From positions 1-64,000 of IMG/VR virus record IMGVR_UViG_3300037189_005453: a DNA stretch of 64,000 nucleotides; one strand, written 5' to 3'. A program made the translations under genes and the position numbers. Below are positions 675 through 13,042 of the stretch, in pieces; the first letter of the stretch is position 1; each line of letters opens with the position of its first letter. The DNA is from a virus. The notes beneath the pieces are model-generated. The model searched no databases, was not told the DNA's origin, and saw nothing but the letters and a program-made list of their open reading frames with translations.

Positions 675-697
675 TTTATTCTCCTTCTTGTTATTTG

Positions 698-782
698 CGG
701 TTTAGGTAAGATTCGAACTCACGGTAGCTTTCACTACAACAGTTTTCAAGACTGCCACCTTCGGCCACTCGGTCACTAAACC
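698..782 (-). tRNA. tRNA-Ser (anticodon UGA)
   Basis: The minus strand folds into a class II cloverleaf of 85 nt. The acceptor stem is GGTTTAG paired with CTAAACC, the D arm contains GAGTGGCCGAAGG, and the anticodon loop CTTGAAA gives anticodon TGA. A long variable arm (TGTAGTGAAAGCTACCG) and a T loop TTCGAAT follow. The discriminator base is G73, as in serine tRNAs. CCA is not encoded, so host CCA addition would be needed. Confidence 0.9.
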
Positions 783-7556: not shown

Positions 7557-8160
7557 GGCTTCAGGGTTACGAGCAGTGATTAGGCTATAGTCCCCCCGAT
7601 AAGGGCTAGTGATGATGCCTAAGCTCATAGCGGATGCCTTGAGCAGCAAACCTAACTAGTGCTGTGGAAATCTAGTTGGCGTTGTTTTCGCGTAATGAAA
7701 CCGTATCCAAGACGGACCTGGGGTTGCGAGTCCTACCGCCTACCTGAGCATGTTGTGAAACTGCTCACCCTAAACTTGATGCGAGTCCTGCAGCCTTAGG
7801 AGGAAGTCGCAGGGCGGACATTTAAGGGTCGTGAGTCTTACGGTAGACATTAAACAATTCCGTAAGCGTTGCTTGCGCGTGATGCAGTCGTTGAGTTCGT
7901 TATTCTCCGCTGGTACTCGTAAGGCCCTACCTGAGCCGTAGTAAAAGGGCTCACTCAGACTTAACGGTGCGAGCAGTGACCACAAGCAACCCCCCTTAAC
8001 AGGACTGTGGTTGTAAGTGGGCTCATAGCGGACATCCTAAGCGTCAAACCTGCTAACGACGTAAACCCAAGTAGGGATCGGAAAGCCTTTGGCCCGTTGG
8101 CGAGTCGTTAACGCACTTGTGACCTGAGTATGTCCTAAAACTACTCACCCTATCCAGTAA
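7557..8160 (+). ncRNA. three tandem related structured RNA units
   Basis: Each unit ends with ACC-TGAGNN-loop-NNCTCA. The stems are TGAGCA/TGCTCA (7745-7767), TGAGCC/GGCTCA (7932-7953) and TGAGTA/TACTCA (8125-8147), so paired positions change together while loops keep a GT..T.AAA pattern. Units 1 and 3 share CGAGCAGTGA (7570, 7970) and GCTCATAGCGGA (7623, 8021). Other stems include TTAGGC/GCCTAA, AACTAG/CTAGTT and TAACGAC/GTCGTTA. No sense gene is present. I know no matching family. Confidence 0.6.
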
Positions 8161-8186
8161 CACCAACAAAGAAAGAGGTAACTCTA

Positions 8187-8615
8187 ATGGCACAGATTAG
8201 TGTCCGACCCAACAGGGTCAAGTTCATCAAGGCAGTAACCGTAGCACTCAAGAAGATTGAGGAAGCGGCTGACAAGTACGAGGCTGATATGGCTAAGTAC
8301 AAGGAGGAGTACAAGGTGTGGGAAGCATCCGCTGACCTTAGCCCCTCCAACATCAAAGAAACCAAGGTTCTTGTTGGCCGTAAGTACTTTGAGAACTCAC
8401 CAAGCAAGTGGGCTCCCAACTCTGTCCAAGTAACGCTCAAGAAGTACCCCGCCAATATGCCTAAGGAGCCTACTGCTCCTGCCACTGGCACCAAGAACTC
8501 CTACACCTACAATGACTCGGTGAAGGAACTCAAGAGCGTCATTACCCTCCTCGAGATGGTTGATGATGAGTTGGTCAATGCTTCGGTAGCCAACAAGGTC
8601 ATTCAGTACCTCTAG
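8187..8615 (+). CDS. hypothetical coiled-coil protein, 142 aa
   Basis: Residues about 12-45 (KFIKAVTVALKKIEEAADKY onward) form a charged coiled coil. A Pro-rich segment (PKEPTAPATG) and a final helix follow. The start has SD AAGAAAGAGG and sits just behind the third unit of the structured RNA, so that RNA may form its 5' leader. Its stop is two bases ahead of the hammerhead ribozyme. No family is recognised. Confidence 0.75.
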   Translation: MAQISVRPNRVKFIKAVTVALKKIEEAADKYEADMAKYKEEYKVWEASADLSPSNIKETKVLVGRKYFENSPSKWAPNSVQVTLKKYPANMPKEPTAPATGTKNSYTYNDSVKELKSVITLLEMVDDELVNASVANKVIQYL

Positions 8616-8616
8616 T

Positions 8617-8695
8617 CTTTGATGACGAAACAGGTAGCCTTACCCCCTAGGGCTACCTGTCGCTAGGTAAATTGCCTAGCCTGATGAGTCAAAAG
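8617..8695 (+). ncRNA. type II hammerhead ribozyme
   Basis: All core elements are present in order: GAAA (8627-8630), stem III CAGGTAGCC/GGCTACCTG (8631-8639, 8651-8659), the cleavage triplet GTC (8659-8661), stem I GCTAGG/CCTAGC (8662-8667, 8675-8680), then CTGATGA (8681-8687). Stem II is formed by GTCA (8688-8691) with TGAC (8623-8626) and extended by AAAG with CTTT. Cleavage is expected between 8661 and 8662, in the spacer between two genes, leaving a 5'-OH leader for the next gene. Confidence 0.88.
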
Positions 8696-8709
8696 AAAGA
8701 GGTGGTTAT

Positions 8710-8955
8710 ATGTCTGAGACATATGACAACTTTGAGGTTCGTAGGGTGTTGATGGAGATTCCATCACGCCTTTTGGACTCCGTTCAAGAACACGGTGTCG
8801 AGGTAGATGGCCGAGTGCTTATGGCACTTCAGTCAATGTGCTTCGGTGCTATCGCTCACCTTGACGAAAATGTCTTGGCTAAGCGAGAGGCTGAGGAAAT
8901 GAAGGAAGCGTTTAAGTCCTTCACCCTTACTCCTGAGGAGACCCCCAGTGAGTGA
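8710..8955 (+). CDS. hypothetical protein, 81 aa, behind the ribozyme
   Basis: The protein starts MSETYDNFEVRRVLMEIPSR and is mainly helical, ending in an acidic tail (TPEETPSE). SD AGAGG is used. The hammerhead cleaves 48 bases upstream of the ATG, so translation may depend on the processed leader. The stop overlaps the next gene by eight bases. Function unknown. Confidence 0.75.
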   Translation: MSETYDNFEVRRVLMEIPSRLLDSVQEHGVEVDGRVLMALQSMCFGAIAHLDENVLAKREAEEMKEAFKSFTLTPEETPSE

Positions 8956-9316
8956 GGGCCTTGAGCGAGATGACTCAAAGGTTCTTATCTGCCGTGCGGT
9001 AGATAAGGATGACCTTTGGGCTGATGTCTTTGGGGGTGGTTACGAGTTCCTACCTTGGTGGCGCGATGTAACCTTCCCCAATGGGGACTGGGAGACTCAC
9101 GGCACTGCTGTCGTGACTGTCCTAGACCCTGATGACCCTGATGAGCAGGAGACGATTACCAAAGAACTTACGGTAACGGATCTTGCTAATGCTTGGTCTG
9201 CCCTTACCACTAGTGGGTTCCACCACTGTGGTAACAACACGCTAGACGATGCGGATGCCTGCACAAGCGACGCTGTATTACAGCAAGCCGTGTTCGGTGG
9301 CATCATCTACGGCTAG
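8948..9316 (+). CDS. hypothetical acidic protein, 122 aa
   Basis: It starts with GTG inside the end of the previous gene and is strongly acidic (DPDDPDEQETITKEL). Aromatic residues cluster near the N-terminus (YEFLPWWRD), and a C-terminal CGNN..CTSD pair of cysteines is present. No family is recognised. It is followed by a GC-rich hairpin with the shared CCAACACAAA loop. Confidence 0.7.
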   Translation: MSEGLERDDSKVLICRAVDKDDLWADVFGGGYEFLPWWRDVTFPNGDWETHGTAVVTVLDPDDPDEQETITKELTVTDLANAWSALTTSGFHHCGNNTLDDADACTSDAVLQQAVFGGIIYG

Positions 9317-9326
9317 CACCTAAGAG

Positions 9327-9370
9327 GGTGGGGCGGGCGTGCCAACACAAACACGCGCGCTTGCCCCACC
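9327..9370 (+). terminator. GC-rich hairpin with CCAACACAAA loop
   Basis: GGTGGGGC (9327-9334) pairs with GCCCCACC (9363-9370), and GCGTG (9337-9341) with CACGC (9352-9356), closing a loop CCAACACAAA. It stands between two rightward genes. As at 5940, there is no T-run. Confidence 0.5.
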
Positions 9371-9395
9371 TGTCCAATCAGAAAGGAGGTAAGGG

Positions 9396-9708: not shown

Positions 9709-11163
9709 ATGTTCGCAGTCATTCTTCAAGAAGGACTAACCACCCCCCAAGGTATGCTGTACGGAATTCGTCAGTATGCCGTCATCCCTCAAGCAGACGG
9801 CACTGTTCGTAAGCTTGTCCGAGACGGCAAGAACCTGCGTGGTACAGCAGGCGCTTGGCGACCTCTTGACTTTGTTGTGTCAAGCAACAAGGCCGTGGGT
9901 AACCCTGTTGCCATCTCGATTACTGCGAGTGATTACGAAGACCTCAAGTCTTCCAACACTCCTACAGTTCTTATGCAGAAGCTGGTTCGTACCGTAAAGG
10001 ACATGAACGAGCTAAGTACTGAGAACTTTGTAGACCAGTACAACGAGGTGTTCGTCAAAGCAGAGAGTTCACCTCATCTGCTCTCTGAGTACCTAGGTAA
10101 CACTGTTCCTGTAGCAGTAAGCCCCACCATTCAAGTTGTACAACAGCCAGTTGTACAGCCTGCCTTTGAGTATGTAGAACTACCACCAGTTCCTGCTTAC
10201 TCATCAGTTGCTCCAGTAACCATTGAAGCAACACGTGAACAGTATGGCTTTATCGAAGAGCCATACACCGTCCCGACAGAAAGTGAGACTCCCATGGAGT
10301 ACAGCACCACAATGCCGATTAAGGATGACACTCAGTCAATCCTTACGGTGCCAGATATTCACCCGTACTATCCACGCAAGTTCTTTGGTAAGACCGAGCG
10401 TGAGATTTACGACACAGCCAGAATGTTCCAGGAGAACGTTCTGCTTACTGGTGATGCTGGTACTGGTAAGACATCCTCTGCACGTAACTACGCAGCAGAG
10501 AATGGTTTGCCGTTCGTAACCATCGAGTGCACACAGCAGATTGACCAAGGTGTGACCCAAGGGTCGTTCGTACCCACTGGTCAGGGTAACGGTGTCAAGT
10601 GGAAGTACAGCCAGCTTGCCACTGCTATCCAACAGCCCAGTGTCATTCTGATCAATGAGTTGACTCGTATGAGTCCTAAAGCAGCGTCGTTGTTCCTACG
10701 CCTGCTTGAGGAGCGTGAGTTGCTCATCGAGCCAATGAACCAGGTCATCAAGGTACACCCTGGTGTACTGTTCATTGCTGACCAGAACACTGGTATCGGT
10801 TACACAGGTACAAGCAAGCAGGATGCTGCTCTTGTTGACCGCTTCAACATCAAGTTGGAGTTCCATTACGACACCAACATCGAGAAGAACTTCATCAAGT
10901 CTCCTACTCTCTTGGCCTTTGCGAGTAACATCCGTGAGGCCAGTGAATTGAACGATGAGTTCTCGGTGCCAATGTCTACTCGACTGCTCAAGAACTTTGT
11001 GTCTCAGGCATCACGCCTCAACTTCGAGTTCGCAGTCAACTCAATGCTCTCCAACTATCCCAAGATGGATGGTGAGCGTGACGCTATCAAGATGCGGTTC
11101 GACGCTGATGTCTCACAGATTGCTGATGAGCTTGGCGTTCCTCTAGGTGGTTACTCCATCTAG
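9709..11163 (+). CDS. MoxR/CobS-like AAA+ ATPase
   Basis: The 484-aa protein has a divergent N-terminal region with a Pro/Val/Thr-rich linker (about 125-210) and an AAA+ core. Walker A is GDAGTGKT at 248-255, and Walker B is VILINE at 312-317. A sensor region follows with IADQNTGIGYTGTSKQDAALVDRF, where DRF matches the MoxR arginine-finger segment. MoxR-type ATPases work with VWA-domain partners to remodel proteins or insert metal ions. The next gene encodes exactly such a partner, so the two should form one machine. Confidence 0.88.
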   Translation: MFAVILQEGLTTPQGMLYGIRQYAVIPQADGTVRKLVRDGKNLRGTAGAWRPLDFVVSSNKAVGNPVAISITASDYEDLKSSNTPTVLMQKLVRTVKDMNELSTENFVDQYNEVFVKAESSPHLLSEYLGNTVPVAVSPTIQVVQQPVVQPAFEYVELPPVPAYSSVAPVTIEATREQYGFIEEPYTVPTESETPMEYSTTMPIKDDTQSILTVPDIHPYYPRKFFGKTEREIYDTARMFQENVLLTGDAGTGKTSSARNYAAENGLPFVTIECTQQIDQGVTQGSFVPTGQGNGVKWKYSQLATAIQQPSVILINELTRMSPKAASLFLRLLEERELLIEPMNQVIKVHPGVLFIADQNTGIGYTGTSKQDAALVDRFNIKLEFHYDTNIEKNFIKSPTLLAFASNIREASELNDEFSVPMSTRLLKNFVSQASRLNFEFAVNSMLSNYPKMDGERDAIKMRFDADVSQIADELGVPLGGYSI

Positions 11164-11215
11164 TCAGTATGGGTGGGGGCATTAGCCCCCACCCCTTTTC
11201 TAAGGAGAAAAGAAA

Positions 11216-13042
11216 ATGGATGAACAATCCACAAATGATGTGTTCGATACCCCCGAGCCATTCACTGTTACTAACAACCACGTCATCAGTGCAGAGCAGA
11301 CGCGACGCGCTCGTATGCTTCAGGTTGTTGGTAAGTTTGCCAGCACTCTTACGCTTCGTTCCATTGGCGTTGAGTTGTCAGGTAAGCATGACCGCAATCA
11401 CCAAGACGCCCCTGCTTGGTCAGATGCTGACAACATTTGGTTCAACGAGGATGAGCTAGGTGACCTCAGTGACTTCGACACCGTGCTTAGCATCAAGGGT
11501 CTTAGCCTCCACGAGATTAGTCACATTATGCTGACGCCTCGTAACGGTAGCAACCTTGCCAAGGAGGTACAACGTCAGGGTCTATGGCGTGCGTTCAACT
11601 CACTCGAGGACCAGCGCATCGAGATGATGATGAGCAAGCGTTTCGGTAACGTAGCTGACTGGCTGTGTGCTGCTGTAGCTAAGTTCATTATGGAGGATCC
11701 CTCCCAATGGACAACGTGCTTCCCGCTCCTTCACGGCCGTAAGTTCCTACCTGCCGAGTTGCGTGCACAGGTTGCTAACCTGTACGAGAACCAAGAGGAT
11801 GTTGTTCGACTCAAGCAGTTGATTGACTCCTACATCGTGCTTAACCTTGTTGACCCGCAGAACTTCCCCACTGCTCTCAACATCATCGCTGAGTACGACG
11901 CTCTTGTTAACAAGCTTGGTCCTAATCCACAGGATAGTTCGTGGCAACCACAGACTGGCTGGGGTCGTGTCAAAGACCCCAACGGTCACCAGTCACGCAA
12001 GGATGGTGAGCTTAAGTCATCCAAGTCCAAGCCTATGAGCAAGGCTGAACAGCAGAAGCTCAGTGATAAGGTCGAGGGTGCAGTGCAGGAGGCTAACCAA
12101 GCTGACGCACAGGGTAGCCCGCAGTCATCTGAACCACAAGCTGGTGACTCTCCAAGTAGTTCTGCTAGCTCTCTCTCTTCTATCCTTGAGGATATCCTGG
12201 AGGACATCAAGGAGAAGAAGCACAAGGAGATCCAACAGATTATCAAGCAGTACAACGGTGAGGTTGAGTTGACATCCATCAACGCAGGTACTCCTCAGCG
12301 TCCACACTGTTCTCCTATGGCTGTAAGCAATGCCACAGTGCAAGCCTCTCGCTCTTTTGCCAATGAGCTTGAGCGTTTGCGCCGTGACTATGACCCTGGT
12401 TGGAACCGACGCACCTCGTCAGGTCGCCTCAATGTTCAGCGTTATGTCACTGACGTTGACATCGAAGAGTGCTTTGACCAGTGGGACCTTGGCCGTGAAG
12501 ATGCTGTAGACATCGAAGCAGTCATTCTCCTTGACGTGTCTGGTTCGATGGGTTCTCACTCCATTGGTTCCTTTGAGTCTATGTGGGCTATCAAGCGTGC
12601 GCTTGACAAGGTCAACGCCAGCACTACGGTCATCGCCTTTGACAATGACACGCACCTCATCTACTCAGCCAATGAGCGTGCTGGTCAGCAGATGAAGTAC
12701 ACCAACCAGTGGGGTGGCACTGACCCCTATGAAGCACTGCGTTACAGCCGTAACATCTTGGCGCAGTCTAGCCGTGCCATCAAGCTGTGCATCGTTATCA
12801 CTGACGGTATATGGAGTAACGAGGAACAGTGTAACAAGCTGATCCGCGAGTTCCGTCGTGCAGGAGTTATCACTGCTCTTGGTTATATCGTTGACCGTTA
12901 CTACATCGACAACGGTTACCGATTCAACATCGACAGCCACGGATGTGAGGTAGCTGTCAACATCAGCCAGATGCCTGAGCTGTTCACCTTAGCCCGCAGT
13001 ATGGTTCGTCTGGGTATCCAGCGTAACCTTATCGCCAGCTAG
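11216..13042 (+). CDS. VWA-domain protein with HExxH (CobT/metallopeptidase-like)
   Basis: The 608-aa protein has HEISH at 99-103 followed by an EDQRIE helix, as in the metallopeptidase-like region of VWA phage and bacterial proteins. The middle (about 245-330) is Gln/Ser-rich and charged. The C-terminal VWA domain carries the MIDAS motif DVSGS at 440-444 and a later VITDG. Together with the upstream MoxR-like ATPase it forms a chaperone pair analogous to NorQ/NorD or CobS/CobT. The target is unknown. HExxH could bind zinc, so proteolysis is possible. Confidence 0.85.
   Translation: MDEQSTNDVFDTPEPFTVTNNHVISAEQTRRARMLQVVGKFASTLTLRSIGVELSGKHDRNHQDAPAWSDADNIWFNEDELGDLSDFDTVLSIKGLSLHEISHIMLTPRNGSNLAKEVQRQGLWRAFNSLEDQRIEMMMSKRFGNVADWLCAAVAKFIMEDPSQWTTCFPLLHGRKFLPAELRAQVANLYENQEDVVRLKQLIDSYIVLNLVDPQNFPTALNIIAEYDALVNKLGPNPQDSSWQPQTGWGRVKDPNGHQSRKDGELKSSKSKPMSKAEQQKLSDKVEGAVQEANQADAQGSPQSSEPQAGDSPSSSASSLSSILEDILEDIKEKKHKEIQQIIKQYNGEVELTSINAGTPQRPHCSPMAVSNATVQASRSFANELERLRRDYDPGWNRRTSSGRLNVQRYVTDVDIEECFDQWDLGREDAVDIEAVILLDVSGSMGSHSIGSFESMWAIKRALDKVNASTTVIAFDNDTHLIYSANERAGQQMKYTNQWGGTDPYEALRYSRNILAQSSRAIKLCIVITDGIWSNEEQCNKLIREFRRAGVITALGYIVDRYYIDNGYRFNIDSHGCEVAVNISQMPELFTLARSMVRLGIQRNLIAS

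Follow-up and report, generated by a model that had tools for sequence, protein, structure and literature searches.

The closest described relatives of the element considered here are the type II hammerheads of bacteria and their prophages (RF02276). In vitro, prophage hammerheads cleave polycistronic RNAs. Perreault et al. (2011) proposed that they cut long transcripts into mRNAs of single-gene or operon length; four of the 18 consensus-matching hammerheads assayed in that study failed to cleave in vitro (PMC3088659). In the archaeal haloviruses HF1 and HF2, a variant of the core called HHphage lies 13 nt from a start codon, and the 5' end of a transcript has been mapped to its cut, within 3 nt (PMC3088659). 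What phage hammerheads do biologically is still referred to as an open question (PMC6155905).

Our subject is a stretch of 64,000 nucleotides (the window) from the 79.5-kb record of an uncultivated, contractile-tailed phage, which carries a complete type II hammerhead at 8617-8695 on the + strand between two small genes encoding proteins of 142 and 81 aa (Table 1). We consider it a cis-acting ribozyme whose predicted self-cleavage is likely to split a polycistronic phage mRNA, a reading to which we assign a probability of roughly 0.8. The conserved core and the permutation, with stems I and III closed and stem II open, are those of the bacterial and prophage type II elements, as is the placement between small phage genes, from which cutting of long transcripts has been proposed (RF02276; PMC3088659). 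The window element departs from RF02276 type II in its long 13-bp stem III, in a 4-bp core stem II continued by a GA bulge and an extension, in having no evident pseudoknot between loop I and the 3' tail when inspected by eye, in its sub-threshold score, and in being present as a single copy. With HHphage it shares an intercistronic position shortly upstream of a start codon; unlike HHphage, it has a canonical core, with 18 nt between the end of the core ribozyme and the AUG. The HDV-like theta ribozymes of gut phages are another class of self-cleaving RNA in phage genomes; they have a different fold and are reported in connection with tRNA-based recoding (PMC10879173).

Table 1. Features of the hammerhead locus and the adjoining reading frames, in window coordinates.
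Feature	Position	Strand	Basis or remark
Upstream 142-aa ORF	8187-8615	+	UAG stop at 8613-8615, 14 nt before GAAA
ACCUCU, outermost extension of stem II	8608-8613	+	minimum-energy fold; role putative
UCUUU, stem II second segment (partner AAAGA 8692-8696)	8616-8620	+	fold
UGAC, 5' strand of core stem II, open end of the type II layout	8623-8626	+	sequence, descriptor, covariance model
GAAA, conserved; last A is A15.1, pairs with U8660	8627-8630	+	sequence
Stem III hairpin, 13 bp	8630-8660	+	descriptor, fold
GUC (8659-8661), cleavage triplet, with scission predicted at C8661/G8662	8659-8662	+	sequence, established hammerhead chemistry
Stem I hairpin, GCUAGG-UAAAUUG-CCUAGC	8662-8680	+	descriptor, fold
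CUGAUGA, conserved	8681-8687	+	sequence
Stem II 3' strand: GUCA 8688-8691 (core), AAAGA 8692-8696 (second segment)	8688-8696	+	descriptor, fold
AGAGGU, Shine-Dalgarno sequence for the 81-aa ORF, partner of 8608-8613 in the uncut RNA	8698-8703	+	fold
Downstream 81-aa ORF	8710-8955	+	overlaps the 122-aa ORF
122-aa ORF	8948-9316	+	homologue in contig L132, 38% identity

Read with its edges, the element runs UCUUU-GA-UGAC-GAAA-(stem III hairpin)-GUC/(stem I hairpin)-CUGAUGA-GUCA-AAAGA, the slash marking the predicted cut. Both strands of the core are intact, CUGAUGA fitting CUGANGA and GAAA being present; A8630-U8660 forms the A15.1-U16.1 pair, the NUH triplet is GUC, and in the covariance-model alignment C8626-G8688 is the G10.1-C11.1 pair that closes stem II at the core. 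According to both descriptor and fold, stems I and III are closed by loops and stem II is open, which is the type II permutation. The initial annotation of a complete type II hammerhead in this gap is strongly supported by the core nucleotides, the three helices and their order, and the cut position that it gave agrees with ours. Its three stems are all there, stem I having six GC/AU pairs plus two weak pairs where 6 bp had been given; its 9-bp stem III is in fact 13 contiguous pairs, a tally that takes in A15.1-U16.1 and the inner pairs. Stem II consists of 4 bp, the GA bulge at 8621-8622 and 5 bp more, and is extendable by pairing of ACCUCU with AGAGGU; the former motif overlaps the final codons of the 142-aa ORF and the first base of its stop codon. 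In many type II elements, loop I forms a pseudoknot with the 3' tail. Here no stretch of 4 bp or more joining loop I (UAAAUUG) to the tail was seen by eye, which makes the speed of cleavage at physiological Mg2+ uncertain; the U of the loop and the A preceding stem II agree with the type II class consensus.

At gathering thresholds, the Rfam models return only tRNA from the window, where a single tRNA-Ser (UGA anticodon) lies at 697-782 (-), and RF02276, with its gathering cut-off of 37 bits, has no match anywhere in the whole record. Around the locus, a search at E <= 1 brings up only RF00008, the type III family, at 19.6 bits and in another register. The RF02276 score proposed at the outset as a check thus fell below threshold. 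This is no refutation, since the model is insensitive to phage type II elements: as a positive control it recovered six of about 39 elements found by descriptor in five loci (L081, L096, L108, L018 and L128), and an Rfam threshold is a database cut-off, not a defining feature of a ribozyme. Because RF02276 misses most of the phage examples tested, phage hammerheads are probably under-reported by annotation pipelines.

This insensitivity led us to build a covariance model of our own, R1, from 66 other phage type II elements, with the window element and its relatives left out of the training set. R1 scores the window element at 52.3 bits (E = 6e-12). Among 3,746 dinucleotide-shuffled versions of the 64-kb window, the type II descriptor found nine matches in all, every one of them weaker, and none of the shuffled windows had a match with a stem I of at least 6 bp and a stem III of at least 9 bp. 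When positions 8609-8702 are folded by RNAfold without constraint, the minimum-energy structure is exactly the hammerhead at -41.8 kcal/mol, against -21.3 +/- 3.3 kcal/mol for shuffled sequences (z = -6.1). On the shuffled-window counts and this z-score, a chance fold is rejected. Covariation in alignment A2 was set aside as evidence for the helices, since its members had been picked by a descriptor that requires those very helices. Descriptor and R1 together found no further hammerhead in the 79.5-kb record (the descriptor covered both strands of the window). With this one element only, the record offers no pair of hammerheads that could release a unit-length or circular RNA, and that reading is rejected.

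The initial annotation further held such an element to be unusual in a phage, which our scans of viral contigs contradict: those of IMG/VR for type II gave at least 120 matches each, so that elements of this kind are common in phages. The scan for types I and III likewise gave at least 120. A bare core pattern, GACGAAAC-N-GTC-N-CTGATGAGTC, in which stems I and III are left unspecified, matched at least 120 stretches in IMG/VR; among the matches listed, both hairpins reach 5 bp or more in 108 of 123 distinct ones, compared to five of 24,600 interior-shuffled versions, from which it follows that such cores in phages are, as a class, real hammerheads. Many loci contain several elements, with 12 in each of L096 and L108. 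The window element is a fresh, clear case of something already common in phages; the initial annotation named it correctly but was mistaken in calling it unusual.

The placement of the element is equally typical. Of 195 phage type II elements that are non-redundant among the matches listed, 188 have an upstream ORF of at least 40 codons that ends close by, in most cases with the stop codon 4-10 nt before GAAA, and start codons mostly lie 15-40 nt past CUGANGA; in a second sample with another stem II sequence (n = 143, again among the matches listed), the stop codon falls within 15 nt in 70% and the start codon at 8-40 nt in 82%. The start codon of the 81-aa gene lies 22 nt after CUGAUGA, and this distance and that to the upstream stop codon are both typical. 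Phage type I and type III elements are likewise intercistronic. The terminator scan puts the first intrinsic terminator of the + strand at 11171-11194 and lists none in the gap that separates the 142-aa and 81-aa genes, which makes a single transcript across the element plausible.

A few features of the surrounding region should be recorded. The strong terminator at 11171-11194 separates the gene for a MoxR-like AAA_5 ATPase (9709-11163, +) from that for a VWA (CoxE-like) protein (11216-13042, +), and related contigs have similar neighbours. Adjoining the ribozyme, a hairpin at 8708-8724 (+), AUAUGUC-UGA-GACAUAU, holds the AUG of the 81-aa gene within its stem and possibly adds a further translational control. 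The 142-aa ORF has no Pfam match and only a weak match to phrog_1371; upstream of it, + strand ORFs that reach 60 aa are nearly absent from about 630 nt (7557-8186, +). Within this stretch, 7880-8186 has an ordinary fold (z = -0.8), and no Rfam or tRNA match was found in 7557-8186.

Relatives of the locus were found neither by a nucleotide search of INPHARED nor by searches with single proteins (the 142-aa protein against INPHARED; the 142-aa and 81-aa proteins against IMG/VR), and the resemblance of the 142-aa protein to a 160-aa protein of contig L002 is too weak to call. The AAA ATPase as query did retrieve related viral contigs; it found no relative in GTDB genomes. Two of the related contigs carry one type II hammerhead each: L001 at 5637, ahead of a homologue (60% identity) of the window's 95-aa gene, and L132 at 6589, directly ahead of its homologue of the 122-aa ORF, with R1 scores of 52.5 and 42.5 bits, respectively. 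Compared to the window, L001 differs in two stem III pairs and L132 in 11 of 20 stem pairs; at every one of these pairs both sides are changed and none is broken, and in L132 compensatory changes are present in all three stems. This comparison indicates that the structure has been kept while its position differs among neighbouring junctions of the same gene neighbourhood. We note that at the junction where L001 has its hammerhead, just before the 95-aa gene, the window has a GC-rich hairpin (GGUGGGGC...GCCCCACC) followed by UGUCC (9325-9375, +), without a hammerhead core.

Altogether, three of the 11 related viral records have a hammerhead, at three different junctions, and eight, which may be fragments, have none, suggesting that the element is dispensable in this lineage. 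Such a distribution, together with the occurrence of one element per genome where many other phages have clusters, is what one would expect if the hammerhead were intact in appearance but idle, a relic or a horizontal acquisition with no effect on expression. We think this rather unlikely, considering that the core and every stem pair have been preserved although the stem III sequences diverged between the relatives, and that the element fits tightly between stop codon and Shine-Dalgarno sequence. A plain intercistronic hairpin, serving as transcription terminator or 3' stabiliser of the mRNA and resembling a hammerhead core by accident, is highly improbable. Stem III by itself would indeed make a 13-bp hairpin right after the stop codon, and in L002 a similar gap between genes contains a hairpin followed by a U-rich tail, but in the window no U-tract follows stem III, the element is absent from the terminator scan, all core nucleotides are there and the three helices close. 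The window hammerhead is very probably active, and the splitting of a message is the most likely consequence.

Let us consider, however, whether in this lineage the cut might in addition control translation. The pairing of ACCUCU (8608-8613) with AGAGGU (8698-8703) is part of the minimum-energy fold, and the mean unpaired probability of 8697-8702 rises from 0.18 in the uncut RNA to 0.89 once the 3' product is folded by itself. With its extension, stem II (4 + 5 + 6 bp) could thereby keep the 81-aa gene's Shine-Dalgarno sequence hidden until the cut, together with ribosomes finishing the 142-aa gene, turned the stem into an intermolecular helix able to dissociate and expose the site. L001 behaves alike with a different sequence (CUCUUC/GGAGAG, unpaired probability 0.35 to 0.81), and so do a few unrelated elements (L108 at 9064, L118 at 11708, L096 at 1655). 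On the other hand, L132 is unmasked in its fuller context, 6-bp pairings arise by chance in about 10%, masking with a probability above 0.9 occurs in 8% of phage type II elements compared to 5% with swapped flanks and is thus not enriched, and the co-fold energy suggests that the two cleavage products could stay paired. We therefore regard a cleavage-dependent switch as conceivable but doubtful. If it did operate, it would be a one-shot switch, in which the ribozyme served as a timer for the translation of the next genes, beyond the cutting of mRNA. A general pairing of stem II with the Shine-Dalgarno sequence in phage type II elements is rejected, since duplex energies and masking frequencies match those of permuted controls. 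As a separate observation, the elements of L118 at 11708 and L096 at 1655 are similar, with unusually long stem III regions and in common a 5' edge, AUCCUCCCUCCAAUGAC, complementary to a downstream GGAGGGA ribosome-binding site; possibly they form a separate subgroup with a masked Shine-Dalgarno sequence.

Returning to the division of the message as the preferred reading, the grounds for it are the sequence, the fold, its statistical significance, the conservation with compensatory change in two relatives, and the genomic placement. We infer that cleavage actually takes place, that it would do so during infection, and that it would affect stability or translation. In our model, the transcribed RNA would form hairpins III and I, with stem II closing the structure, and would cut itself after C8661. 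The upstream message would then end 46 nt beyond its stop codon with the 13-bp hairpin of stem III and a 2',3'-cyclic phosphate, while the downstream message, covering the 81-aa, 122-aa, 95-aa and ATPase genes, would begin with a 5'-OH and the 6-8-bp hairpin of stem I, 48 nt before the AUG. The likely purpose would be to generate two mRNAs with hairpin-capped ends that are translated and decay separately; judging from general bacterial mRNA biology, such hairpins may shield the ends from exonucleases and from decay that depends on the 5' end.

By its architecture, type II is alone among the three classical permutations in that each end created by the cut carries a closed hairpin. The capping of both ends offers a testable reason for the use of type II as an mRNA divider, and the window case, its two relatives and the few hundred phage elements surveyed for placement locate these ribozymes between a stop codon and the next ribosome-binding site.
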